Source: Nitrococcus mobilis Nb-231 (lineage in GTDB: Bacteria; Pseudomonadota; Gammaproteobacteria; Nitrococcales; Nitrococcaceae). From it: DNA of 64,000 bases. Position numbers and translations under genes: made by a program. Below are positions 24,890 to 40,888 of the stretch, piece after piece; within the stretch, counting starts at the first letter, position 1; each line of letters starts with the position of its first letter. The DNA is taken from NCBI RefSeq assembly GCF_000153205.1, contig NZ_CH672427.1, positions 2,968,596 to 3,032,595 on the forward strand. Reading direction: 5' to 3'. Under the pieces are notes generated by a model. That model saw only the letters and a program-made list of their open reading frames with translations. It was not told where the DNA came from and did not search any database.

Positions 24890-27727
24890 ATGGATAGCGC
24901 CGAGAGCTTGGACACGGGCACGCAGCGTGCCTTTGCAACGGTAAACTTAATCTTGGTTGGGCTGGGCACGGCTGTAATGCTCGGCTGGTCCCTTGAGTTG
25001 CCGACCGTCGTACGGGTGAACCCGTCGTTCGTGCCGATGCAATTCAATACCGCAGTCGGGGTTGCCCTCGCTGGGGTGGGTTTGCTTGCTGGGATTTCCC
25101 GCCAACGCTGGCTCGGTCTCGTTACGGCCACGCTGGTTTTCCTACTTGGCCTTACCAGCCTCATGCAGGATGTGACCGGGGTTCGGCTCGGGATAGACAC
25201 CCTGTTCCTCCACCCGTTCATCACGCAGATGAGCACTTTCCCTGGGCGTCCTTCGCCCAACTCGTCCCTTGCGTTCATCTCCCTGGGTGTGGGTATTTTT
25301 TTGTTTGCCTGGGGTTTGCGCCAACGTTGGATTTGCTGGGCAATCGGACTTTTGGGCAGTGCAACAGCCACCATAGGGGCTGTATCTCTATTGGGCTATC
25401 TCACAGGGGTCGAGGCGGCCTTTCGGTTGGTAAACCATGCGGGAATGGCCCTTCCCGCGGCGGTGGCGTTCGTGGTGGCCGGTGGCAGTCTGTCTGGATT
25501 TGTCGCTCAGACGGCGCGACTCGGGATGCCAGATCGGCAGATTGATTGGGCACCGTGGGCCGCTGCATTGTCCGTATTGGTCGCCGCAGCTTTCCTCTGG
25601 TGTGGATTGCGAGCGAATGAGGCAGCTTATTCGCAACGACGGTTAACCGCCGAGGCGTATTTCTTGCGCCAGGGTATTGCCGCTCCGATTCGGGAAGACC
25701 TTGAGGCATTGCAACGCCTGGCGTGGCGATTGGAGCGCGCCGGGGTGCCGCCGGGCGCCGAATGGTGGGCGGATGCACGGCGGTATCTTGAGACCGAACC
25801 CTACTACGTTTTGCTGTGGGCCGACAAAGACTTTGGCATTAGGTCGGCAATCTCTCTCGTACGGCCGGATCAGCGCTACGCGTTGCACCTGCCCACTATA
25901 AACGACACATCGAACGGGCCGCTCGTGGAGCTGGGCAGCCGAAAAATTTTCCGCTCCGCGGTGATTGAGTTACCCGAAGGAGGGGCTGGCTTCTACGCGT
26001 TTATGCCCATACGCCAGGGCCGGAGTGTGGCGGGTTACCTCGTCGCCCTCGTCGACCTTAATGCCATGCTCTTTCCGCTGTTGGACGAGTATCTACAGCG
26101 CGGGTATCGGTTCGTGCTCTTCGAGGACGGCAATAGGCTGGCTTTGAACGGCGGGGCACAACCCTTCGTCGCTGCGCGTTCCGCCGATTACGAGGTTGCG
26201 ATTCCTATTGCCGGCAAGGCATGGCGGTTGGCCCTATACCGAATGCCGAAGGGGGTGGCTGCTACCCGGACGGCTTTGCCGGAGACGGTCCTCGTCCTCG
26301 GGTTGGTGCTTGCGGTGCTGCTCGGTATAGCGCTGCGCAGCCGGCAACTGCTGGCGGTGCGAGCCAGTCATCTGACTCGCTCGAAACAGGGGCTCGAGAA
26401 AGAGGTCGCGCAGCGTGGCGAAGAGCTGGCTTACCTTGCTACCCACGACGCGCTGACCGGGTTGCCGAACCGGATGCTGTTCAGTGAACATCTGCGCCAG
26501 GCGCTGGTTGAAGCGGATCGCCACAACCGCCGCCTGACGGTTATCTGCCTCGCGATCGACCACTTTCAGGAAGTCAATAATAGTTTGGGGCATGCTGCTG
26601 GCGACGATTTGCTGTGTGCGTTCTCGCAGCGCGTGGGTCAGTGCCTGCGCCGCAGCGATGTGCTCGCGCGTCTGGGAGGGGATGAGTTCATCATCCTATG
26701 TCCGGAAATAGTCGCCCCAGACTTCACGATTGGCATCACGGAAAAGATTCTTAGCATTATGGAGGAGGGCTTTCATGCGGGCTCGAATGAGGTTGTCGTG
26801 ACCACCAGCATAGGTGTGGCGCTGTATCCGGAATCCGGCAAGACCGTCGAAGCGCTGATAAAAAACGCCGACGCGGCGATGCGCCAAGCCAAGGCGGCGG
26901 GGCGGAATACCTATGTTTTGTACGGGCCGGAGTTGGGGAAAACGGCGCATGCCAGAGTGGACCTGAGACGGGCATTGCGGTACGCCGTTCGCAACGGTGA
27001 GTTGCGGGTGCACTATCAACCGCAGGTTGAATTGGCGGACGGTCGTATCGTGGCGGCCGAAGCGCTGGTGCGCTGGGAGCGGCCGGGGCACGGTTTGGTG
27101 CCGCCGAACAGCTTCATTCCGCTGGCCGAGGAGAGCGATCTGATCGTACAGATCGACAGTGAAGTCCTGCGTCACGTGGCCGCCGACCTCCAGTGCTGGA
27201 GTGAAAACGGTTTCCCGCTGCCAAAAATCAGTGTTAACGTTTCGGCCCGGCAGTTGTATAGAGGCCGGCTGCTGGATGACTTTCGTCAAGTGCTCGACCA
27301 CTACCCTGCGGCGCGCGGGCGGCTGGAGGTGGAGTTGACCGAGCGCCTGCTGGTCGACGCCGTGCCGCAGAATCGCCGCGTATTGGATGCGTTGGTCGAT
27401 CTAGGCGTAACCTTTGCCATCGACGATTTCGGTACCGGCTATTCCAGCTTTGGCTATTTCCGCGATTTTCTCATCCACACTCTCAAAATCGACCGCAGCT
27501 TCATACAACAGTTAGCGGAGGAAGCCGCTGATGCACGGATCACTCTGGCGATAATCGGGCTGGCGAAAACCTTCGATATAGAGGTCGTGGCCGAAGGCGT
27601 GGAGCTTCCGGCGCAACAGGCGTTTCTCTGTCAGCACGGGTGTGCCCGGGCACAAGGTTGGTTGTTCGGCAAACCCATGCCGACCGACGAATTCATCGCG
27701 CATTGGAAACAAGCACGAGCTGTTTGA
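24890..27727 (+). CDS. membrane GGDEF-EAL cyclic-di-GMP enzyme
   Basis: A 945-residue protein. Six to seven hydrophobic segments occupy residues 1-240, followed by a probable periplasmic sensor region (about 240-460), another membrane helix (LVLGLVLAVLLGIALRS), a GGDEF domain (about 515-675) and an EAL domain (about 690-940). The cyclase site is intact (RLGGDEFIIL) and the inhibitory RxxD (RRSD) lies five residues before it. The phosphodiesterase site is also intact (EALVRW, DDFGTGYSS). It could make or break c-di-GMP depending on the signal. It is divergent from the secreted beta-helix gene. Confidence 0.93.
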   Translation: MDSAESLDTGTQRAFATVNLILVGLGTAVMLGWSLELPTVVRVNPSFVPMQFNTAVGVALAGVGLLAGISRQRWLGLVTATLVFLLGLTSLMQDVTGVRLGIDTLFLHPFITQMSTFPGRPSPNSSLAFISLGVGIFLFAWGLRQRWICWAIGLLGSATATIGAVSLLGYLTGVEAAFRLVNHAGMALPAAVAFVVAGGSLSGFVAQTARLGMPDRQIDWAPWAAALSVLVAAAFLWCGLRANEAAYSQRRLTAEAYFLRQGIAAPIREDLEALQRLAWRLERAGVPPGAEWWADARRYLETEPYYVLLWADKDFGIRSAISLVRPDQRYALHLPTINDTSNGPLVELGSRKIFRSAVIELPEGGAGFYAFMPIRQGRSVAGYLVALVDLNAMLFPLLDEYLQRGYRFVLFEDGNRLALNGGAQPFVAARSADYEVAIPIAGKAWRLALYRMPKGVAATRTALPETVLVLGLVLAVLLGIALRSRQLLAVRASHLTRSKQGLEKEVAQRGEELAYLATHDALTGLPNRMLFSEHLRQALVEADRHNRRLTVICLAIDHFQEVNNSLGHAAGDDLLCAFSQRVGQCLRRSDVLARLGGDEFIILCPEIVAPDFTIGITEKILSIMEEGFHAGSNEVVVTTSIGVALYPESGKTVEALIKNADAAMRQAKAAGRNTYVLYGPELGKTAHARVDLRRALRYAVRNGELRVHYQPQVELADGRIVAAEALVRWERPGHGLVPPNSFIPLAEESDLIVQIDSEVLRHVAADLQCWSENGFPLPKISVNVSARQLYRGRLLDDFRQVLDHYPAARGRLEVELTERLLVDAVPQNRRVLDALVDLGVTFAIDDFGTGYSSFGYFRDFLIHTLKIDRSFIQQLAEEAADARITLAIIGLAKTFDIEVVAEGVELPAQQAFLCQHGCARAQGWLFGKPMPTDEFIAHWKQARAV

Positions 27728-27821: not shown

Positions 27822-27928
27822 GTCTTAATCCCTTTTCTGTCAGGGCATGGTTCGAACACTACAGAACAAGGCAAAACACGGGCCGACAAGCTGTCTTAAT
27901 CCCTTTTCTGTCAGGGCATGGTTCGAAC
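27822..27928 (-). CRISPR. minimal CRISPR array: 2 repeats, 1 spacer
   Basis: Two identical 36-base repeats at 27822-27857 and 27893-27928 with a 35-base spacer at 27858-27892. On the minus strand the repeat begins GTTCGAACCATG and ends GGGATTAAGAC, so the last eight bases (ATTAAGAC) resemble the usual crRNA 5' tag. That orientation matches the cas operon. The repeat has a short CCCT/AGGG internal pairing for Cas6. The 94 bases between the array and cas2 would contain the leader. No further repeat copies occur to the left of 27822. Confidence 0.93.
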
Positions 27929-28022: not shown

Positions 28023-28352
28023 TCAGGCGGCTGAGCTCTGGTCGTCGCCGTCTTGCCAGGGACCGGACAAGCCCAGCAGTTGCACGCCCTCGGGCAATGG
28101 CCGGCGTCCCAGCCAGCGGGCCGGTCGGCTTTCTTGCACGGCATAGATGCGCACATCATCGGCTTTGCGGTCGATCAGCTCAGCGAGCTCTTGGGCCAAA
28201 CGATTGTGCTCCGGCGGCGTCAGCCAGCAGTAGAAGACGCTGTACTGCAGCGGCAAGCCCCAGCGCTTCATGCGCCGGTGCACCCGCGCAAGCCGGCGCG
28301 GCTCACAGATATCGTAACAGACCAGATGCGGTGTGCGACGTGCTTGCGCCAT
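28023..28352 (-). CDS. cas2: CRISPR adaptation protein Cas2
   Basis: A 109-residue protein with the Cas2 ferredoxin-like core: LVCYDICEPRRLARVHRRM with the conserved first-strand Asp, LQYSVFYCWL, then IDRKADDVRIYAV. Cas2 is the dimeric scaffold between Cas1 dimers in the spacer-integration complex. It follows the Cas1-like gene without a gap and is the last gene before the array. The length of about 95-110 residues is normal. With the Cas1 genes rearranged upstream it may have no functional partner in this locus. Confidence 0.9.
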   Translation of the reverse strand: MAQARRTPHLVCYDICEPRRLARVHRRMKRWGLPLQYSVFYCWLTPPEHNRLAQELAELIDRKADDVRIYAVQESRPARWLGRRPLPEGVQLLGLSGPWQDGDDQSSAA

Positions 28353-29177
28353 CTATGGTATCCGTAGCTTGCGGCGCGCCTCAGCGGCCTGTTCGCTGGT
28401 GCGGGATGGTCCATGGGCGCGCGTCATATATTCCCAGCGCAGCGCATCGAGGTGGCGCTGCAACTGCTCCGGCAAGGTGACGGCGGCGGCCAGTTCGAAG
28501 AACCGGACCAGCGCCGGGCGCTCGAGCTCGTGGGCTTGCTGGCGACGCCAACGTACGTACCGCCACAGCAGACGAACCTCCAGGCAGCGCTCCAACACCT
28601 CGACGAGCTCGCAACCCTTGGAGGACAGCGCCTCAACCACCGGCTGTAGGCCGTGCTGGTCGATTTCGGCTTGCAACCAGGCGTGGAGTAGCTCGCGGAG
28701 CAAGGCGCTCTCCCGCTCGGCGGGCACGTCCGGGCGGAATTGGCGCAGATAGCGCAGCAGCCGCTTGCGGTTGGCGGCGAAATCGCCGCGAAACCGGCGC
28801 CGGAATGCCAGACTCCAGGCGTGCAAGAGCTGCACCTCGCGCCACCAGCGGAAGGCTCCGGCACCGCTGCTGCAGTCGATGGCCGCGGCCAACTCGCGCA
28901 CCGCGGCGTTGGCTGTGGGCCGCGCTTGATGGAGCACCGCTTCCATGGCGCCGCCGGCGGTTTGGAAATGAACGGTGCCGCCGCGCCGGACGATCTCAAG
29001 GCAAACCGCCAGTAACCCCTCGCCGCTCGCCGTGATCACCGCGCGCCGCACCCGCCGTAGCGGAATTCGGGTGTCGGCCCGCTGCGGGCGGCTTACCCGA
29101 ATGCTGTCCGACTCCAACTCCAGGCGGACCTCGCGGCGGGCATTCACGTACAGGGCGCGGCTACTTGAAGTGCTCAT
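28353..29177 (-). CDS. Cas1-like protein lacking catalytic motifs
   Basis: A 274-residue protein. Residues about 8-90 look like the Cas1 N-terminal beta domain (ALYVNARREVRLELESDS, IPLRRVRRAVIT, GGTVHFQTAGG). The remaining 180 residues are helical and rich in Arg, Leu and Trp. I do not find the Cas1 metal-site motifs (Glu of the x-x-E-G-x-A block, GxLH, or DxxE). It may be a Cas1-derived structural subunit or a separate family. Its start overlaps the stop of the upstream ORF (ATGA), which carries the motifs missing here, and its stop abuts cas2. The coding frame is intact over its whole length. Confidence 0.6.
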   Translation of the reverse strand: MSTSSSRALYVNARREVRLELESDSIRVSRPQRADTRIPLRRVRRAVITASGEGLLAVCLEIVRRGGTVHFQTAGGAMEAVLHQARPTANAAVRELAAAIDCSSGAGAFRWWREVQLLHAWSLAFRRRFRGDFAANRKRLLRYLRQFRPDVPAERESALLRELLHAWLQAEIDQHGLQPVVEALSSKGCELVEVLERCLEVRLLWRYVRWRRQQAHELERPALVRFFELAAAVTLPEQLQRHLDALRWEYMTRAHGPSRTSEQAAEARRKLRIP

Positions 29178-29560
29178 ATCTCGCCCGCCTCTTGCTGCAG
29201 ACTGATGCAGTGCTCTACCAGCGCGGCACACAGCCGCCGCAGCCAACGCCGGTGCAATATGGCCTGGGTCTCGTAGGCCGCATAGAAGGTGGCGCGGGCG
29301 GCTTTGCTCATGCGTACGCCGCCGCCCTCTTGGCTGAACGACTCCGCGCGCAGTTGCCGGTCGGCGAACAAGCGCCAGACCAGACGTTCCACGCGTGGGC
29401 GCGCCACCTCGGTGAAATCGCAGGCAAGCGAGTCGCGGTTGTAGCTGCAGTCGTGCAACATGCCGAGCATGGGGTCGAGCCCGGCCTGGGCGATCGCGCG
29501 CAGGGCGAGCCGGCGTGGCTCCCGAACATCGTAGGCAGCGAGGTAGAGTTTGCGGGGCAT
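29174..29560 (-). CDS. Cas2-like start joined to Cas1 catalytic C-terminal half
   Basis: A 128-residue protein. Residues 1-20 read KLYLAAYDVREPRRLA, the first strand and helix of Cas2. From residue 21 the sequence becomes AQAGLDPMLGMLHDC and DSLACDFTEVARPRVERL, the Cas1 catalytic half, with His36 and Asp48 (plus Glu51) at metal-ligand positions. EGGGVRMSKAARATFYAAYE is spread over the usual Cas1 C-terminal helices. The first two thirds of a normal Cas1, including the first catalytic Glu block, are absent. ATG 29560 has an excellent GGGAGG site, so it is probably expressed. It may be a deletion product or a genuine split-Cas1 part. Confidence 0.65.
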   Translation of the reverse strand: MPRKLYLAAYDVREPRRLALRAIAQAGLDPMLGMLHDCSYNRDSLACDFTEVARPRVERLVWRLFADRQLRAESFSQEGGGVRMSKAARATFYAAYETQAILHRRWLRRLCAALVEHCISLQQEAGEI

Positions 29561-29599
29561 GGAGCCTCCCTTGAAAAACCTCGAACAACTCCCGAATTC

Positions 29600-29627
29600 C
29601 GTCATCCCGGCCTACGCCGGGATGACG
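29600..29627. repeat. palindromic hairpin repeat, copy 2
   Basis: A perfect 12-bp stem CGTCATCCCGGC / GCCGGGATGACG with loop CTAC. It resembles the second hairpin of the repeat at 20880-20899. It lies 40 bases upstream of the rearranged Cas1 ORF, inside the only sizeable gap (29561-29769) of the cas operon. Confidence 0.8.
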
Positions 29628-29769
29628 ATGCGAAATGCGGTTTTTCGAAGTCTCCCTTGGCCTGTGATGGCGCCACCTTAGGCGCAAGAGCGCCGCGATG
29701 CAGAAACGGCAAGCTTGCCGCGCCGTCGGCGGGGAATGGCGAATTGTTAAAGAGCCTCGTGAGAACCGA

Positions 29770-30075
29770 TCAGCGGCGCACCGCGGCAATGCGCTCGGCG
29801 TAGTAGGGCTCGAGCCGTGCGCCGTGGCGCTCCAGCGTGTCCGCGGAGAGCTCGCGGCCGCGCAGCTCGGCCGGTAGCATGACGCTGAGGTGCTCATAGC
29901 GGGCGCCCCGGGCGCAGACCGCGGCCACGAGCTGGACCGGCAGCGTGCCCACCACCCGGTCGCCGGCTTGGATCCAGGCGGGATCGAGGTGCGGCACGAT
30001 GCGCCCGCCTTGCAGGCCGCGGCGCGCCAGCCACTCCAGCGCGCCGGCATGGCGGGTGACGAGCCACAGTGTCAC
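29770..30075 (-). CDS. csx16: Csx16 (VVA1548 family)
   Basis: A 101-residue protein that matches the Csx16 pattern: LWLVTRHAGALEWLARRGL, VPHLDPAWIQAGDRVVGTLP, ARYEHLSVMLPAELRGRELS. The start is GTG at 30075, overlapping the cas6 stop (GTGA). Csx16 proteins accompany type III systems that signal with cyclic oligoadenylates. They are regarded as probable ring nucleases that degrade the messenger and switch the response off. That role fits the two CARF proteins in this operon. A frame extending to 30150 overlaps cas6 and is not used. Confidence 0.88.
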   Translation of the reverse strand: MTLWLVTRHAGALEWLARRGLQGGRIVPHLDPAWIQAGDRVVGTLPVQLVAAVCARGARYEHLSVMLPAELRGRELSADTLERHGARLEPYYAERIAAVRR

Positions 30076-30947
30076 GGCCGCGCCTCCAGTCGATAGCGCC
30101 CCAGTCCCATGACCGCGCCCTTGCCCACGTGTAGCCACTGACCCAGCCAAAGCCAGGGCCAGAGCGGCGCGAACTCACCGCTCAAAGCGAGCTCGCCGAT
30201 AAGCCCGCCCATGGGTATGCGGCGGCGCTGACGGGCGGAGTAGCGTGCCCAGTCGAACCACTCCAGATGCACGGCGTTGACACGCACGGCGCGGGCCGCC
30301 GCGGCGAGCCCGCGGTAGTCCGCGCGCAGCGGTGCCGCGGCTTCGAGATCGTGCAGCATAGACACGCGCCGGGTCAGCGCGGTGAACAGTGTGGCGAAGT
30401 CGAACTCCGCCGCGGTCAAATAACGATTCTCCCGGCGCAGCCGCAGCGGGTGCTCTAAAATCATGCGCACCCGGGGCGGCGCGGCCGGTGGCTGGGGTAT
30501 CTCGGCGGCAAAAGACGTCTTTGCTGCGGCATTGATCGCCAGCGGCCGCGCCTCGCGCAGTGTGAGCGGCACGCCGTTGAGGCGCAGTTTGGCGGCGGCG
30601 TCGAGCACTTCGCGGTGGCGGCGGGCCGCCGCGCCGATCAGGGTGAGCTCCAGCGTCACCGATGTGTCTCCGGCATCGGTTCGGGGCGAGACCACGTAAG
30701 GGTGGGGCAGCTCGGCATAGTGCCCGGCGAGCCCGCCGGCCTGAGCATGGCCGCGGGTCTCGAACAGCAGCCCATAGCCGCAGCGGCGAATGACCGGACA
30801 GTCCGCGCAGGCTTGCGCGCCGGTGATGCAGGCGAGCTCCCGCAATGCTTTGCCGAGCGCCCCGCGCCAGAGCGCGCCGGGATAAGGCGGCAAGCGCAGC
30901 GGGGTGGCAGGCGCGAAGGTGAGCCGCATGGGCAGCAGGGGAATCAT
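30072..30947 (-). CDS. cas6: Cas6 pre-crRNA endoribonuclease
   Basis: A 291-residue RAMP protein of the Cas6 type found with Cmr systems. The N-terminus MRLTFAPATPLRLPPYPGALWRGALG leads into a Cys-rich insert (CADCPVIRRCGYGLLFE). The C-terminus has the glycine-rich RAMP loop GQWLHVGKGAVMGLGRYRLE. It would cut the repeat RNA 8 bases before the spacer. I use ATG 30947, which overlaps the CARF-HEPN stop (ATGA); a longer frame to 30980 runs inside that gene. The catalytic residue cannot be fixed by eye. Confidence 0.88.
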   Translation of the reverse strand: MIPLLPMRLTFAPATPLRLPPYPGALWRGALGKALRELACITGAQACADCPVIRRCGYGLLFETRGHAQAGGLAGHYAELPHPYVVSPRTDAGDTSVTLELTLIGAAARRHREVLDAAAKLRLNGVPLTLREARPLAINAAAKTSFAAEIPQPPAAPPRVRMILEHPLRLRRENRYLTAAEFDFATLFTALTRRVSMLHDLEAAAPLRADYRGLAAAARAVRVNAVHLEWFDWARYSARQRRRIPMGGLIGELALSGEFAPLWPWLWLGQWLHVGKGAVMGLGRYRLEARP

Positions 30948-32143
30948 GGAGTTTGCTCGGGGAGCAGGACGGTGAAGCATTCTTCCAGCAGCGCGCGCAG
31001 CCGCTGCGGCGAGGCGAGCGCCTGTTGAACCCTGTCACTCTTAGCTTTGTCGCCATGGGCCAGTGCGTTGCGCGTCTTACGCAGTAATTGGTACTGAGTG
31101 TAGCTCGCCGGTTTCTCTGTCTCGAACCACTCTTTCGCTGTCTCACGCTCCGCCTGTTCATTCTGGCGCCCGACGAAGCCGCGCTCTTGGGCCAGCTTGG
31201 TAATGAAAGCCTCAAAGCCATAGAGGGAGGCACGCAAGTAGTCATCTTGGCGCAAAGCATTCAGGGCTTGGGTACGCTGACGTTCATAGAGGTAGTTGCC
31301 GTCCACCCATTTCATGCGCTCTTCCAGCAGCGGCTGGAAGAGCGCGCCGGGACCGCTAAGCGGATGCTCGTGCAGGTTGTTGCGGGCTTTTTTCAGCAGG
31401 CCCCGGGCCCGCTGCCCCTGATGGATGCTCTCGCAAAAGGCGGCTTGGCGCAGGTTTTCAGCAACGGTGGCATGATCGGCTTTGATCAGCTCGGCTACGG
31501 CGCCGTAGTCGCCCAGCCAGTCGTGGCGCTGCAGCGCTTCGATCCAGGCGGTGATGTTGAGCAGGCCGGAGAGGTCGCAAACCTCGGCGGTGGCCGTCTC
31601 CGGGCGGTAGGCGCCGTACCAGAGCCCCTCGATAGCAAGCTCCGGCCGCGCGGCACGTAGGTAGAGCGCTGCGGTCAGGGCGATCATCGGCAGGTGGCGG
31701 TAGGCGTGGGTGACGTCGATCGAGAGGTGCGTGGCGCCTTCGGTGGCCTGATCGAGAATCTGCAGCAGCGCCACCTGCTCGTTTTCTTTCAGAGCTTCGG
31801 GGATGATCCGAAGCTCGATCTCGCAGCCCAAAGACGCGGCAAGCAGCGGCGTCAGAGCATCCAAATGTTCCTGGGTTACGGCTTGCCGGTCCACCCAGTC
31901 CCCCAGTTCGAGCCGCTTCTCCTCCTCTTGCCCGGCCAAGTCCACGTCCCGTTCGAACAGATGGTCCCACATGCTGCCGGCGGTGCCGAGGATCACCAAC
32001 CGATCCGGGCGTTGCCAGCGTTGCAGACAGTAGCCGAGGTAGGCAGCTTGCTCCCTGGTGCCGTCGGGCAGGCGGTAGGTTGTCTGCCGGTAGCCGTCTT
32101 CGTTCCGGGGAGTACGGCCGAGAAAGGAAACCAATACATACAT
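30944..32143 (-). CDS. CARF-HEPN ribonuclease (TM1812/DxTHG family, Csx1/Csx2-like)
   Basis: A 399-residue protein. The N-terminal half is a CARF domain, with LVSFLGRTPR, ILGTAGSMWDHLF, and SIDVTHAYRHLPM, a DxTHG-type motif with Ala replacing Gly (about residue 141). The C-terminal half is helical and ends with a HEPN site LRKTRNALAHGD (R-x4-H near residue 358). Cyclic oligoadenylate made by Cas10 would bind the CARF part and switch on RNA cleavage. It lies 5 bases after cmr6 and is coupled to cas6. The catalytic Arg and His are present, so it should be active. Confidence 0.88.
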   Translation of the reverse strand: MYVLVSFLGRTPRNEDGYRQTTYRLPDGTREQAAYLGYCLQRWQRPDRLVILGTAGSMWDHLFERDVDLAGQEEEKRLELGDWVDRQAVTQEHLDALTPLLAASLGCEIELRIIPEALKENEQVALLQILDQATEGATHLSIDVTHAYRHLPMIALTAALYLRAARPELAIEGLWYGAYRPETATAEVCDLSGLLNITAWIEALQRHDWLGDYGAVAELIKADHATVAENLRQAAFCESIHQGQRARGLLKKARNNLHEHPLSGPGALFQPLLEERMKWVDGNYLYERQRTQALNALRQDDYLRASLYGFEAFITKLAQERGFVGRQNEQAERETAKEWFETEKPASYTQYQLLRKTRNALAHGDKAKSDRVQQALASPQRLRALLEECFTVLLPEQTP

Positions 32144-32148
32144 GGCGC

Positions 32149-33324
32149 TTATTCTCCGAGGTAGCCACGTACCGTCAAAGTGTGTTTGTGCGCTTTTCTC
32201 TGCGCCGGTTTGCTGCCCTTGCCGTCAGGGTTCCATTTGCCCTGCTTTTCCATGCGGGCGCGGATGTCTTTGGCGGCGCGCCGCTTGTCCTCACCCTCGA
32301 AGGCGCCCGCTTCGAGCTGCTGGATGAGGTGGACGTAGTCCGGCTGGCTTTTGTCATCACGCTGATCCAGCAATTCCTCGAGGCGCCGGGGAAAAGGATC
32401 CATGGCTTCGAGCTCAGCCTTGCGAGTCGCGGCTTGCTGCTTCTCGGCGGCTTCTTGTTCGGCCTGGCCGAGTGCCCACTCATCGACGGCCATGGCGCCG
32501 TAGCCCACGGCGGTTTTGGCGCCGAAGCCGAGCCAGTCGAAAGCGTGCCGAAAGGCCGCATCCAGCAGCGCTTGCCAGCGCTGCGCTGCCGCTAGGGAGG
32601 CATCCAGGTGCTCGAGCAGCGGCCGGTTGCACTCCACGTAAAAGCTAAAGCGAATGCCTGGGGGCATGGCGAGAAACCGAATCGGGTTGGGCGAGCCCGA
32701 GTCGTGGGGGCTTTGCCCACCGGTGTAGTAGTGGGTCTGATGCGGCGTCATGATCTCCACCTGCAACGCTTGCTTATCCTTATCCGGCACCGGATAAGCA
32801 TCCCAGAAGGCGAGCGCGCCGCGCCGGGTGTCCTCGTCGTCAGCAGCGGGTTTGCCGAACAGCGTGTCGATGGCCGGTTCGCTCCAGCCGTCCGCGTTTG
32901 GTTCACCGAATTCGCCCTCGGTCAGCTCACGGGCGGCTTGGCGGACCACGCCCTTGATGCCGCTGCCCGGCAAATAGGGCAGGCCGTAAGGCGAGAGAAA
33001 GGCAAAGCCGTTTTCGAGTGGATGTTCCATACCGAGCCCGGTGGCGAACGGCGCCGTGCTGCGTGCGGGCAGTTGCCAGAGCCCTCGACGCGGCTGGTCG
33101 AGCAGGGATTGCGCGAGCGCCGCCTGGCGCTCGGCGAGCGCATGCATGCGCCGGCGGTCGTCGTCGGAGAGTGTGCCGGCCTGCCGCGCGGCGTCGGCCT
33201 CGGCGCTATCCGGCACGGACCAGGTTGCTCGGTCCCACACGCGAAAATACAGATAAAATTTGTGCCCTGGAGCGGCGTCGGAAAAATCCTGCCCGAGGTA
33301 GGCGGGTACGGCGGCGACGGCCAT
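32149..33324 (-). CDS. cmr6: Cmr6 RAMP subunit
   Basis: A 391-residue RAMP protein. Family signs are LENGFAFLSPYGLPYLPGSG followed by IKGVVRQAAREL, GALAFWDAYP, EIMTPHQTHYYTG, and the glycine loop WLGFGAKTAVGYGAM. Cmr6 caps the backbone of the type III-B effector near the crRNA 3' part. Beyond the glycine loop it has an unusual C-terminal tail of about 110 residues, charged and helical, ending in a basic stretch (about residues 285-391). Many Cmr6 proteins stop soon after the loop. It sits 10 bases behind cmr5. Confidence 0.9.
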   Translation of the reverse strand: MAVAAVPAYLGQDFSDAAPGHKFYLYFRVWDRATWSVPDSAEADAARQAGTLSDDDRRRMHALAERQAALAQSLLDQPRRGLWQLPARSTAPFATGLGMEHPLENGFAFLSPYGLPYLPGSGIKGVVRQAARELTEGEFGEPNADGWSEPAIDTLFGKPAADDEDTRRGALAFWDAYPVPDKDKQALQVEIMTPHQTHYYTGGQSPHDSGSPNPIRFLAMPPGIRFSFYVECNRPLLEHLDASLAAAQRWQALLDAAFRHAFDWLGFGAKTAVGYGAMAVDEWALGQAEQEAAEKQQAATRKAELEAMDPFPRRLEELLDQRDDKSQPDYVHLIQQLEAGAFEGEDKRRAAKDIRARMEKQGKWNPDGKGSKPAQRKAHKHTLTVRGYLGE

Positions 33325-33333
33325 CTAGACCTC

Positions 33334-33711
33334 CTAATGCTGTTGGCGCTTCTCGACCGCCGGAGCGATCTGGCGCACCCAGCGCAACCAGGCCAGCGCC
33401 TCGGCCGTGATTTGCTGGAACGCCCGCGGCTCGGCCACTAGCAGTGCCTGCATGAACGGTGCGAACTCGGAGCGGCCGATTGCTTGCGGAAAACGCCTGG
33501 TGAGCCAGCATCGCAGGTGCTCGCCCAGCTTGGAGTGGTGCCCGTTGCGCTCTTTACGCCCTTTCTCCTCGAGAAAAGCCAGTGTCTGCATGAGCCCGCT
33601 GTTCATGATCAGCGCCGGCAGACCCTTGGCGAGCTTGGTATAGGGTTCGGTGCAGCCCTCGGCGCACTGCCAGGCATCGGCGGCGCGCTGCTGCTCCAGG
33701 GTTTGGGTCAT
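33334..33711 (-). CDS. cmr5: Cmr5 small subunit
   Basis: A 125-residue, all-helical protein with the Cmr5 start TLEQQRAADAWQCAEG, the middle LPALIMNSGLMQTLAFLEEKG, and the C-terminal LLVAEPRAFQQITAEALAWLRW. Cmr5 lines the effector backbone opposite the crRNA and helps hold target RNA. I use ATG 33711, two bases after the cmr4 stop; a longer frame to 34095 overlaps cmr4. Length is typical for the family. Confidence 0.92.
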   Translation of the reverse strand: MTQTLEQQRAADAWQCAEGCTEPYTKLAKGLPALIMNSGLMQTLAFLEEKGRKERNGHHSKLGEHLRCWLTRRFPQAIGRSEFAPFMQALLVAEPRAFQQITAEALAWLRWVRQIAPAVEKRQQH

Positions 33712-33713
33712 AC

Positions 33714-34631
<918 letters not shown>

Positions 34632-34636
34632 CTATC

Positions 34637-35787
34637 TCAGGCGTTGGCGATGGTGCAGCGGTTGAAGCCCTCGGCCCGCCGCTGCGGATCGTTATTCTGA
34701 TCTTCCAGCTTCCATAGTCCTCTTTCGGCAAGCTTGCCGAGCACTTGCGGGTCGCCTTGCAGCCCTTCGAACCAGTACACGGCCCCGGTGGGGGCGCAGC
34801 GCTGGGCGGGCTTGGGCGCGTGGCGGGCCAGGTCCCAGCCGCTCACGGTCACGGCACGCGGTATCGCCGCGCTGACCAGATGGGCCGAAGCGCCGGAGAG
34901 ATGCCAGCGGCCGCTCGCGTTCAGGCCGGGCAGGCGCCAACCACCGGGGAAGAGCCCCGGAGCGGTGAGCACGACCCGAAAACGCCCGCTCGCGGCGATG
35001 CCCTCAAAATCGGTGGCGGGCTCCTTGATGGTTTCGGGGCAGCGCAAGACGGCTCCGCGGCCGTCGCCGCCGAGGCGCAGCAGGCCTTGTACCGGCAGGA
35101 TGGACGCCGCGACGCCCTCGATACCAACCAAAAACCCGACCTCGGGGCACAGGGCGATCACCTCGGAAGTGTAGAGCTTACCCTCGGCGGCGCTGCGTCG
35201 GCTCGGATCCAGCGCGATGCCGAGCCGGCGCTCCGGCTGCCAGAGCGAGTCGGTTTTTATCAGGTGAGCGGCGTCGAGCTCGGTGCCGGTGAGATAGCGG
35301 CGCCAGCCCTCGGCGCTGAGCCAGTAACCGGCCGCGGGTTTAGCCGGTGCATCGATGCGCAGCAGCGCCAGCTCCCGCGTGGCCCGGCTGCAGGCGATGC
35401 CCTCGGGCAAAAGTCGGGGCTCCAGGCGATGGACCGTAGTCTTGTCGAGATCCTCGGCCAAAGTCACCTGTAGGTCCGCCGGCAGTGGGTACACGGGCTC
35501 GATGCCGGCGGCGCTTGCGCGGGCGAGCCGTACCGGCCCCAAAGTAAAGCCTCCGGGTTGCGCCGGCGTGCCCAGGGCCTCGGCGTAGCCTGCGGGCAGG
35601 CGCGCGCGGCCTGCGGCGAAGGCATTTGGGTCGACTCCCGCGTCGATCAGCATACGGGTGCGCAGCGCACCGGCGAATACGGACGGCCAGGGCGGCATGA
35701 GCGCCTCGCTGTCGGCCCCGGCGCCACCGAAGAGCCGATTGCCGCGCAGATAGAGCACATCGAGCGGCTCGATGAAGCGATACTCGG

Positions 35788-35791
<4 letters not shown>
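34637..35791 (-). CDS. cmr3: Cmr3, 5'-tag-binding RAMP subunit
   Basis: A 384-residue Cas5-like RAMP with the Cmr3 opening YRFIEPLDVLYLRGNRLFGG, then PPWPSVFAGALRTRML, and the C-terminal part LSGASAHLVSAAIPRAVTVS. With Cas10 it forms the foot of the complex and holds the crRNA 5' tag. The start ATG 35791 overlaps the cas10 stop (ATGA). An upstream extension to 35887 lies inside cas10 and is not used. I see no damage. Confidence 0.9.
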
Positions 35792-38661
<2,870 letters not shown>

Positions 38662-38676: not shown

Positions 38677-39654
38677 TCAGGCGTTGACGCGCTCGAGCGC
38701 GTTTTCTTCATCCAGATATTTGTGGGCGTCGGTCCAGACATCGATTAGGCGGCGTTTCTTGTCGGCTGCGTCAGACTCGGGCATTTTGTTCCAGAGCGCG
38801 TCCGAGGGTCGGCAAGGGAAATGGATGAGCTCGCCGTGTAGGCGCCCGTGCGTATCCTCTACGACTTTGAGGCGCAGACTGTTAGGAAGACGATCCCGCG
38901 CGCTCCATCCCGGCAAGGCGTGCTTGGTAACGGGATAGGAGAGCAAACAGCGATCCGCACTTTCTTTTGCAATCGTTGCTCGCACTCTTGCTAGCTGTTG
39001 CAGCACCTTGTCCCAAGATGGCCAAGAGTCTCGGGTGCGCCAGATCAGAGGGCCGCGCTCGTCACGGCCGATTCCGCGCACCCAGTCCGAGCACAGCGCG
39101 TCGCGCCAGTAGATCAGGTAGTCGTTCCACACGGCATCACGGGCGCCGTCGAGCACATACGAGCCCCAGCCGTTGCGGCTGCGCCCGCCGACCGTGCCGA
39201 ACCGGCTCATCAACGCCAGGGCCTCCTCGATGCGGTTTGAACCGTTCGCCGCTGCGGCCGGCCAGGCGATGCGCAGCTGCGCCGTCTCGCCGGCGTCGAT
39301 GGCCGGCTTGGCTTGCGGGTTTCTATCGAAGCGGCCGTAACCAAGATAAATGAGCGCATCCACGTTGCCGCTTATCGAGCGGTTAACTTGTTTGTCACTT
39401 ACCCGCCACTCGCCAAGCCGCAGCCGAATTTGGCTTTTCATGGCCTTTTGGTCCGGCCACGCATTGCCGAACAGCTCTGCCTCCTCGCCACGAATCCGCC
39501 CCCAGTCGCGCCCCCGGACGGCGAGCACCAGGCGCCACCATTGACGTAGCTGAGCTTTGAACGGCGGCGTGCGCCAGGCGCCGCGCTGCTCGGCGTCGCC
39601 GAGGAAGGCGGGGCTTAAAAAGCGCACGGTCAACGTTTTGGTGTGCATCGACAT
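38677..39654 (-). CDS. cmr1: Cmr1 RAMP subunit
   Basis: A 325-residue RAMP that begins with TLTVRFLSPAFLGDAEQRG and has WRTPPFKAQLRQWWRLVLA, the Cmr1 signature. ALALMSRFGTVGGRSRNGWGS is spread over its glycine-rich loop. Cmr1 binds near the 3' end of crRNA and target. ATG 39654 and ATG 39648 are both possible starts; an upstream extension to 39777 has no family resemblance. It is the first cmr gene, 73 bases behind the CARF-winged-helix gene. Confidence 0.92.
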   Translation of the reverse strand: MSMHTKTLTVRFLSPAFLGDAEQRGAWRTPPFKAQLRQWWRLVLAVRGRDWGRIRGEEAELFGNAWPDQKAMKSQIRLRLGEWRVSDKQVNRSISGNVDALIYLGYGRFDRNPQAKPAIDAGETAQLRIAWPAAAANGSNRIEEALALMSRFGTVGGRSRNGWGSYVLDGARDAVWNDYLIYWRDALCSDWVRGIGRDERGPLIWRTRDSWPSWDKVLQQLARVRATIAKESADRCLLSYPVTKHALPGWSARDRLPNSLRLKVVEDTHGRLHGELIHFPCRPSDALWNKMPESDAADKKRRLIDVWTDAHKYLDEENALERVNA

Positions 39655-39727
39655 GGCGTAGTCTCTTGCTTCGCTCGGCCAGGCTAACGCGCGGCGGCGG
39701 ATAGTCGCGCAGTGGCAAGCTTTCCGG

Positions 39728-40888
39728 TTACGGCTCGCCCTCGATGTGGATCGACTGCGGCGGGAGGTCCAGTGCATAGCCGGTGTGCGGACGCCGCCCC
39801 GAGGCTTTTATGTGGTAGCGCTCAGCCGCCCGCGGTGTGAGCCCGCTGCGCTCGCTGAGTGCGCGGTTGAGTCGGCTGCGGGTGCGCTCGAAATAATTGC
39901 TGCGCTGGCCTTGCTGCAGCTCCAGGGCGGCGCTCGCAACGGCTTCATGAATCGGGGTGATGCCGTGGCCTTCCAGGTATTCGATCAGGCGCAGTAGATC
40001 CTTGGCTGCGTTCTCATCGAACGGTATCGGCGGGAGATCGTGGTGAGCGCGCTCGGCGAACCAAACGAGCCAGATGAAATGGGTGCTGGATAGACGTACT
40101 TCGTGGCCTTGCAGGTATACTCGGCGCCGGGTCAAGTCGATGCGCAGCTCCGGGCGGTCGAGACTTTGCTGGGCGCGTTCGACGGCGGTGCTGAACGGAA
40201 TTTCGCCGTCGAGCAATGCCGGGTCCAGCCCATCGCGCAGACGCACGAACGGCAGCCGCGCCAGGCGCACTTCGGCGTGCGCCGTGCTGACGGTTTCCCC
40301 GGTGTGCGCCACCTTCAGCCGGCGCGGCTGCGGTGGCGGGTAGAAAAACTCCGGGTGCGATTCGAATGGCGTATTGACCAGCACGTGAGAGAGTTCGTCT
40401 TGCGGGCGGGCGTAGAGGGAGAGCGCGTAGCCGGCATAAAAGCCCATAGTCTTGCGCCCCCCGGCGAGCGAAACGTGCAACCGGAGCTGCGGATCGTGAG
40501 TTAGCTGCCGCAGTAGTGCATTGATGCAGTCGGCCACGGCCGCGTTGCCGTCGGGGTCCGTGATGTCATCGAGCTCGCGGCCCTGCCGATCGCGGATGAC
40601 ATGCAGGGTCTCGGGGCCGAACCGGATCGCGCCGCGATCGAGACCGTAGTCCGCGCACAAGCGCTGGAATTGTCCCGGCACGCCGCCCGGACGGTCCAGC
40701 AGCGTGTGCTCGATGCGACGCCGGCCCTCGCCGGTGGTTACCACATGGATTTCCGTCGGCAGTCGGCGCTGCTCGACCGGTCCACCCACCGCCAGCGCAT
40801 ACAGGGTCTCGGTGACGATCTGAGGCGTCAGCCCGGTGACGCAGACTAAGATATCGCGCGCGTGGCTTAGCCCTTTGTTGCCTTCCAT
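39728..40888 (-). CDS. NE0113-family CARF protein with winged-helix C-terminus
   Basis: A 386-residue protein. The N-terminal CARF domain has ILVCVTGLTPQIVTETLYAL at the ligand loop and HVSLAGGRKTMGFYAGYAL near residue 143, both typical of the NE0113 (TIGR02584/PF09623) family. The C-terminus is helical and ends in a winged-helix-like YHIKASGRRPHTGYALDLP. I see no HEPN R-x4-H site, so it is more likely a ring nuclease and/or cyclic-oligoadenylate-controlled DNA-binding regulator than an RNase. It is the first gene of the operon and divergent from the small membrane protein, well placed to control the locus. Confidence 0.85.
   Translation of the reverse strand: MEGNKGLSHARDILVCVTGLTPQIVTETLYALAVGGPVEQRRLPTEIHVVTTGEGRRRIEHTLLDRPGGVPGQFQRLCADYGLDRGAIRFGPETLHVIRDRQGRELDDITDPDGNAAVADCINALLRQLTHDPQLRLHVSLAGGRKTMGFYAGYALSLYARPQDELSHVLVNTPFESHPEFFYPPPQPRRLKVAHTGETVSTAHAEVRLARLPFVRLRDGLDPALLDGEIPFSTAVERAQQSLDRPELRIDLTRRRVYLQGHEVRLSSTHFIWLVWFAERAHHDLPPIPFDENAAKDLLRLIEYLEGHGITPIHEAVASAALELQQGQRSNYFERTRSRLNRALSERSGLTPRAAERYHIKASGRRPHTGYALDLPPQSIHIEGEP

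Follow-up and report, generated by a model that had tools for sequence, protein, structure and literature searches.

Two adjacent open reading frames (ORFs) that each resemble part of Cas1 raise the question of whether one integrase has been divided between two genes or a deletion has left a remnant beside a second Cas1. The ORFs lie in a stretch of 64,000 nucleotides (nt) of the genome of Nitrococcus mobilis Nb-231; this whole stretch is called the window here. It contains a type III-B clustered regularly interspaced short palindromic repeats (CRISPR)-Cas locus on the minus strand, in which cas10/cmr2 and cmr3–cmr6 were all recognized with Pfam, NCBIfam, and PADLOC profiles. The adaptation genes form the 3′ end of the minus-strand operon, and a two-repeat array comes last. 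ORF1 (29174..29560, minus strand) encodes 128 amino acids (aa), its stop overlaps the start of ORF2 (ATGA; ORF2, 28353..29174, minus strand), and an intact cas2 follows (28023..28352, minus strand; PF09827, E value 9.6e-16), all as an earlier note on this DNA had described. That note offered two explanations: a deletion that joined cas2 to cas1 and put an end to spacer acquisition, or an undescribed, split, and permuted Cas1 complex. Our analysis indicated that a locus of a known kind has undergone a local deletion here, and that ORF2 belongs to a second Cas1 family, termed Cas1b below, whose parental module the earlier note had overlooked.

The comparison that carries this conclusion is with locus L072 of another genome of the same genus (G401), which turned up when genomes of the order were searched with the Pfam Cas1 model. 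At the equivalent place, L072 has an intact cas2a, cas1a (318 aa), cas1b (274 aa), and cas2b; the parent cas1a encodes a full Cas1 with all ligands, and cas2a and cas2b both encode Cas2 proteins by Pfam. Gene order agrees between the two loci all the way from the array to the C-terminal part of cas10, at which point the L072 stretch stops, with 77–97% amino acid identity per gene (91% for ORF2 and cas1b, 97% for cas2b). In the DNA alignment, the window differed from L072 by a single 871-nt gap. Bases 1–58 of ORF1 track cas2a with one mismatch, whereas bases 54 onward track cas1a, and in the base-by-base comparison the five bases CGCCC at ORF1 positions 54–58 (29503..29507, minus strand, read from 29507 to 29503) are common to both parental flanks. 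At the protein level, ORF1 consists of cas2a codons 1–18, a shared Ala19, and cas1a codons 209–318 (L072 numbering, from the DNA and protein alignments), and the C-terminal end of L072 cas1a matches the end of ORF1. The N-terminus of ORF1, MPRKLYLAAYDVREPRRLA, is also the start of L072 cas2a; the first 19 residues are identical, with one silent DNA difference, which rules out a chance resemblance to Cas2. The Cas2-like start had thus been recognized correctly, and only the switch had been misplaced: it falls at residue 19, not at residue 21.

Based on these results, we are highly confident that a deletion fused cas2a to cas1a and that the window derives from the four-gene module cas2a-cas1a-cas1b-cas2b. 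A single deletion, of 871 nt relative to G401, removed the DNA between codon 18/19 of cas2a and codon 208/209 of cas1a; illegitimate recombination at the CGCCC microhomology is its probable origin. By chance it was in frame, leaving a 128-codon fusion ORF whose end still overlaps cas1b in the native ATGA and which may allow cas1b and cas2b to be translated as before. The earlier suggestion of a deletion fusing cas2 to cas1 is borne out in this respect, since the same-genus locus has a full cas2a and cas1a at this position.

The product of the fusion is neither a complete Cas1 nor a complete Cas2. PF01867 matched residues 20–97 of ORF1 to model positions 204–282 of 283 (E value 1.7e-20), in agreement with the Cas1 catalytic half with His36 and Asp48 read earlier. 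Both of these ligands remain, but the Glu ligand is gone, as is the entire Cas1 N-domain. Against the two domains of about 300 aa and the Glu, His, and Asp ligands of a Cas1, ORF1 has 128 aa, only the C-terminal part of PF01867, no Glu, and a poor structural model. The AlphaFold2 prediction, from an alignment of 20 rows, had a predicted local distance difference test score (pLDDT) of 73.8 and a predicted template modeling score (pTM) of 0.39; residues 1–50, which include both remaining ligands, had a pLDDT of 40–62, and the last helices were confident. Of the ferredoxin-like domain of about 90 aa that makes a Cas2, 18–19 cas2a residues are left, and the 20-residue head alone matched no Pfam family at an E value of 0.1. 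Directly upstream of ORF1, we also observed a stretch of about 90 nt (approximately 29563–29659, core 29600–29627) that is not in L072. Its core is an inverted repeat with the arms CGTCATCCCGG and CCGGGATGACG, and the genome holds two exact copies of this element and one with two mismatches. It resembles a small palindromic mobile element, and the sequence around the ribosome site of ORF1 now comes from it.

We then consider ORF2, the supposed N-half of the split protein. Pfam recognized only a Cas1 N-domain in it (E value 0.008, below the Pfam cut-off), and the PADLOC profile PDLC01185, labeled “Cas1, diverged variant, second in the loci,” matched it marginally (E value 1e-3). Nothing was found by phmmer among PDB sequences, by tblastn in plasmids, or with patterns derived from ORF2 alone in genome contigs. 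Within the Cas1b family as a whole, 65 of the 73 aligned members match PDLC01185 (best E value 3.6e-121), and ORF2 occupies the place that the label implies, directly after cas1 (here the remnant) and before cas2, in the same order as in L072. The alignment used 73 of 81 Cas1b sequences; near-identical or duplicate sequences (L027, L104, L107, and L130) and cut, short, or badly started sequences (L078, L084, L093, and L143) were left out, and so, in addition, was the fused protein of L132. The AlphaFold2 model of Cas1b built from these 73 sequences was confident (pLDDT 91.4, pTM 0.87) and consists of an N-terminal beta domain (residues 7–82) and a helical domain (residues 91–271). All 50 matches shown by Foldseek for this model were Cas1, Cas1-Cas2 complex, or casposase entries. 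VIA-align superimposed model residues 6–254 on 2yzs, an entry titled uncharacterized that we take to be Aquifex Cas1, with Z 17.6 and 243 residues aligned at 3.6 Å, and gave Z 17.5 and 17.3 with the Cas1-titled entries 4wj0 and 4xtk. Mostly helical models can reach a Z of about 13 by chance in VIA-align, so the Cas1 fold is assigned here because both domains are covered and the rows agree, not from Z alone. ORF2 is accordingly not treated as an N-half below; it is predicted to be a whole two-domain Cas1.

This second Cas1 seems to have no active site. ORF2 itself lacks the Cas1 metal motif, and the Cas1b alignment contains no well-filled column with D, E, or H in at least 90% of the sequences, the best being E228 (59 of 73). 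When the Cas1b and Cas1a profiles were compared, the N-domain alone aligned (probability 97.9, 90 columns). Over 75 loci, the mean pairwise identity of Cas1b was 0.29 in the N-domain and 0.17 in the C-domain, the opposite of Cas1a, with 0.39 and 0.45, respectively. This pattern would fit a protein kept for N-domain pairing after its catalytic lobe had lost its role. The earlier note was right that ORF2 has no Cas1 metal motif and resembles the Cas1 N-domain, and was mistaken in seeing nothing more than an N-domain. Its order of “C-half before N-half” was a misreading, as the two ORFs stem from two different genes, cas1a and cas1b.

We also analyzed whether the truncated state recurs. Among the four other genomes of the genus, the module was found in G401 only. 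Four-gene loci in relatives have a cas2a of 92–94 aa, a cas1a of 313–332 aa, and a cas1b of 248–286 aa, followed by cas2b. With PDLC01185 at an E value of 1e-8, a limit below which ORF2 of the window itself falls, Cas1b was detected in 15 of 369 genomes of the class, in every case beside a full cas1a. A search with the Cas1b alignment matched 53 of 398 genomes of the phylum at an E value of 1e-5, and its best 30 loci comprised the window, six Cas1b loci (L167–L172), all six with a full cas1a, and 23 loci that were best matched by the Cas1a model and are ordinary Cas1. In total, a full cas1a stands beside cas1b in 21 of the 21 other classified loci detected via Cas1b, and the window is the sole exception among 22. 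The two-ORF arrangement therefore recurs in none of these loci, an outcome that the earlier note itself had equated with a local deletion. The ligands E161, H226, and D238 (L072 numbering) are present in all 99 full Cas1a rows, which include three identical pairs, and only the fusion of the window lacks E161. A direct search with ORF2 matched 8 of the 369 class genomes: its own genome, G296, G249, G022, and, as weak matches with in-frame stops, G170, G208, G031, and G161. G022 (locus L040) contains no module by our models.

Two candidates for a second truncation were rejected. In G396 of the same order (L080), a 129-aa ORF holds a lone Cas1 C-terminal fragment (PF01867 positions 220–282, 41 bits); it is only about 31–37% identical to Cas1a over 56–63 residues, and no cas1b or cas2 was found by the models on its 6960-base contig. 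In G403 of the same genus (L070), a Cas1 N-domain lies at a contig end, and the best of our four models for it was cas1b at 17 bits. This is not the module: the Cas1 start stands behind another domain in one frame and shares 54–67% identity with the Cas1 part of the long fused ORFs that L071, L074, and L076 contain.

What the deletion means for the system depends on whether another Cas1 could stand in. In the genome of N. mobilis Nb-231, which is 100% complete by estimate, PF01867 gave a single match at an E value of 1e-3 or better, the ORF1 remnant, and searches with ORF2 and with the Cas1b alignment returned ORF2 alone; thus neither a rescuing Cas1 nor a second Cas1b-like protein was found by these searches, and no complete catalytic Cas1 was among the matches. 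Loss of the Glu ligand of Cas1 alone abolishes activity. The one catalytic Cas1 that the searches detected has lost its N-domain and its Glu, and Cas2a is gone; this Cas1 is most likely dead and spacer acquisition lost. Because Cas1b has no conserved metal site and the searches gave no further Cas1, new spacers are very probably not integrated. The proposal that the deletion killed spacer acquisition fits these results, to the extent that function can be inferred from gene content. The array (27822..27928, minus strand) has two identical 36-nt repeats and one 35-nt spacer, compared with seven repeats in G401, where the module is intact and the leader is similar. A search for this repeat, allowing up to three mismatches, found no further copy in the genome, and the single spacer matched nothing in a search against phages. 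The effector genes (cas10, cmr3–6, the RAMP gene in the cmr1 place, cas6, csx1, and csx16) look intact and presumably still use the remaining spacer, so that interference would continue with one spacer.

Several points weigh against this reading. The short array is a weak sign of lost acquisition, because L142 (Microbulbifer thermotolerans), with an intact module, likewise shows two repeats within the fetched stretch, and L087 (Plasticicumulans acidivorans) perhaps does too. The PF01867 search passes over a Cas1 as diverged as Cas1b, as ORF2 itself escaped it. The deletion was read from assembled sequence, for which an assembly error is a rival explanation. Finally, ORF1, cas1b, and cas2b have each kept an intact frame, and the ratios of nonsynonymous to synonymous substitution rates (dN/dS) against G401 are low (0.21 for the ORF1 remnant, 0.11 for cas1b, and 0.05 for cas2b), so that no decay after the deletion was seen. 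The deletion may be recent, or the leftover proteins may still be of use.

Continued use is the alternative that survives best: selection would have retained the fusion peptide, Cas1b-Cas2b, or both for another role, for example in regulating or inhibiting DNA capture or in acquisition with a Cas1 supplied in trans. The intact frames, the in-frame junction, and the low dN/dS of cas1b and cas2b are in its favor. However, a junction falls in frame by chance one time in three, much of the divergence from G401 may be older than the deletion, and dN/dS may thus mostly record the constraint on the parent, the genome searches gave no further Cas1 as a helper, and among the classified Cas1b loci no second one is in the same state. 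We therefore regard retention as improbable. An assembly artefact, in which the strain has cas2a and cas1a that were collapsed by misassembly, is less probable again and very unlikely. The comparison used one genome per species, which leaves some room for it, but the break lies deep within a contig of 3,613,155 bases in a nine-contig assembly rated 100% complete, and a 5-nt microhomology is typical of real deletions and seems too short to collapse an assembly. Assembly of ORF1 (the catalytic half) and ORF2 (the N-domain) in trans into a split, permuted Cas1 with a restored metal site is hardly credible, even though both ORFs are in frame and coupled by ATGA and would bring together two of three ligands (H36 and D48) and a Cas1-type beta domain, because ORF2, the supposed N-half, is itself predicted to adopt a whole Cas1 fold that includes a helical C-domain, a full Cas1a accompanies the orthologues of ORF2 in all of the 21 loci counted above, neither ORF1 nor a conserved Cas1b column supplies the missing ligand, and the ORF1 segment that carries both ligands is not confidently folded.

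The deletion thus leads back to the parental double module, which is widespread, seemingly unstudied so far as the searched literature shows, and of more interest than the window. A Cas1a scan of named genomes, which is uninformative on any cas1b without cas1a, covered the best 80 of 564 relatives: 60 loci had cas1b by hidden Markov model (HMM), one more (L132) had a fused Cas1b-Cas2b, and in 19 cas1b was undetected, that is, absent at an E value of 1e-3 by the Cas1b HMM. Of these 19, 16 read cas2a-cas1a-cas2b (L120, L128, L141, L121, and others); hosts of such three-gene loci, in which two different cas2 genes flank a single cas1, include Aggregatibacter segnis, Vandammella, and Nitrosomonas halophila. 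The hosts of the cas1b loci belong to Gamma-, Beta-, and Alphaproteobacteria, Nitrospirota, Myxococcota, Acidobacteriota, Aminicenantes, and Planctomycetota, and many are metagenome-assembled genomes (MAGs). On a quick Cas1a tree, in which 31 of 98 inner branches were left open, the presence and absence of cas1b needed six changes and was clearly clustered (means of 17.7 and 21.8 when shuffled). Homologues of the window genes csx16, cas6, cmr6, and csx1 occurred 37, 30, 25, and 23 times, respectively, in the 104 fetched loci; this set includes loci without a module and more than one locus from some genomes, and contig ends truncate many of its members. In an Endozoicomonas MAG (L161:279-2977), a second gene resembling cas1a (228 bits, Cas1a model) stands after cas2a-cas1a-cas2b.

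Two rearrangements bear on which subunits belong together. In an uncultured Pseudomonadales genome, L132:5436-6467 encodes an in-frame Cas1b-Cas2b fusion of 343 aa, with PF01867 at residues 12–100 and PF09827 at residues 258–322. In G389 and G390 of the same order (L077 and L079), the genes read cas2a-cas1b-cas2b-cas1a, from which cas1b and cas2b appear to move as a pair. Both rearrangements favor a contact between Cas1b and Cas2b, as far as gene arrangement can indicate one. The intact module would most likely act as a heteromeric integrase in which Cas1a would do the chemistry, the dead Cas1b would be its structural partner, and Cas2a and Cas2b would form the bridge. Tentatively, the parent could be an asymmetric integrase, with the catalytic Cas1 paired with a dead Cas1 in the non-catalytic place and two specialized Cas2 proteins bridging them; we consider this possible and do not lean strongly either way. 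If it is true, the complex has a built-in left and right and could fix the orientation of the prespacer or the leader, and the window is a natural knock-out in which Cas1a and Cas2a were lost and Cas1b and Cas2b kept. The integrase of Pseudomonas aeruginosa, Cas1-2/3, is described as a C2-symmetric heterohexamer, which nevertheless has to arrive at a single orientation at the leader (PMC12259127). A module with both subunits genetically split in two offers a test case for integrase asymmetry and a handle on the role of the non-catalytic Cas1 in each dimer, and the window most likely adds a natural acquisition knock-out with an intact same-genus control.

The remaining genes of the locus, all on the minus strand, are transcribed ahead of the adaptation genes. 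In transcription order, the first two encode an NE0113-family CRISPR protein labeled “ring nuclease Csm6” (39728..40888; TIGR02584, E value 7.6e-67, and PF09623) and a repeat-associated mysterious protein (RAMP; 38677..39777; PF03787, E value 9.1e-6) without an NCBIfam match, which we infer from its position to be cmr1. These are followed by cas10/cmr2 (35788..38661; TIGR02577, E value 7.4e-54, with a GGDD motif in the translation), cmr3 (34637..35797; PF09700, E value 7.2e-66, with TIGR01888 below its cut-off), cmr4 (33714..34619; TIGR02580), cmr5 (33334..33720; PF09701), and cmr6 (32149..33324; TIGR01898). Next come a csx1-type CARF-HEPN protein (30944..32143; TIGR02221 and PDLC01825, E value 2.5e-134), cas6 (30072..30980; PF10040 and PDLC01477), and csx16 (29770..30087; PF09652, E value 4.6e-33, and TIGR02620), and then ORF1, ORF2, cas2, and the array. 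One III-B locus therefore carries three signaling-type accessory proteins, the CARF-HEPN csx1, csx16, and the NE0113-family protein. Convergent to the CRISPR locus, 24890–27727 encodes a 945-aa protein that is GGDEF-EAL-like by eye, and L072 has a 980-aa ORF at the matching position.

In previous studies, doubled adaptation genes have been mentioned in passing. In Methylobacter sp. KS41, the type III locus was reported to have “two copies of cas1/cas2” as part of a III-A system, and doubled cas1/cas2 genes were also reported in Acidithiobacillus ferrivorans YL15 (PMC6119699). The KS41 locus is L092 of our set and has the same four-gene module as the parent of the window; the available portion of that paper gives it one sentence, with nothing on a dead paralogue, a partnership, or a distribution. 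An Antarctic contig was reported to read cas2-cas1-cas1-RT, where RT is reverse transcriptase (PMC11742911). The main text of a 2025 classification paper, in its available portion, contains neither “two cas1” nor “second cas1” (PMC12669027), and the portions available of PMC3150331 and PMC6452270 hold nothing on the four-gene module. Apart from such passing remarks, no description of the module as such was found in searches of the open-licence full texts of PubMed Central (PMC). The second Cas1 has already been recognized by curators, because PADLOC holds PDLC01185. ORF2 resembles that family in membership and in its place directly after a cas1 gene and differs in that the first cas1 is truncated and the match marginal; the label is silent on two different cas2 genes, a dead active site, and a mechanism. 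Compared with type III-B (Cmr) loci, the window shares the effector genes and an array, but its adaptation module is partly deleted and it has one spacer. An ordinary Cas1-Cas2 integrase is built from one Cas1 and one Cas2. By this measure, the window is left without a complete catalytic Cas1, whereas its parent module has two of each subunit.

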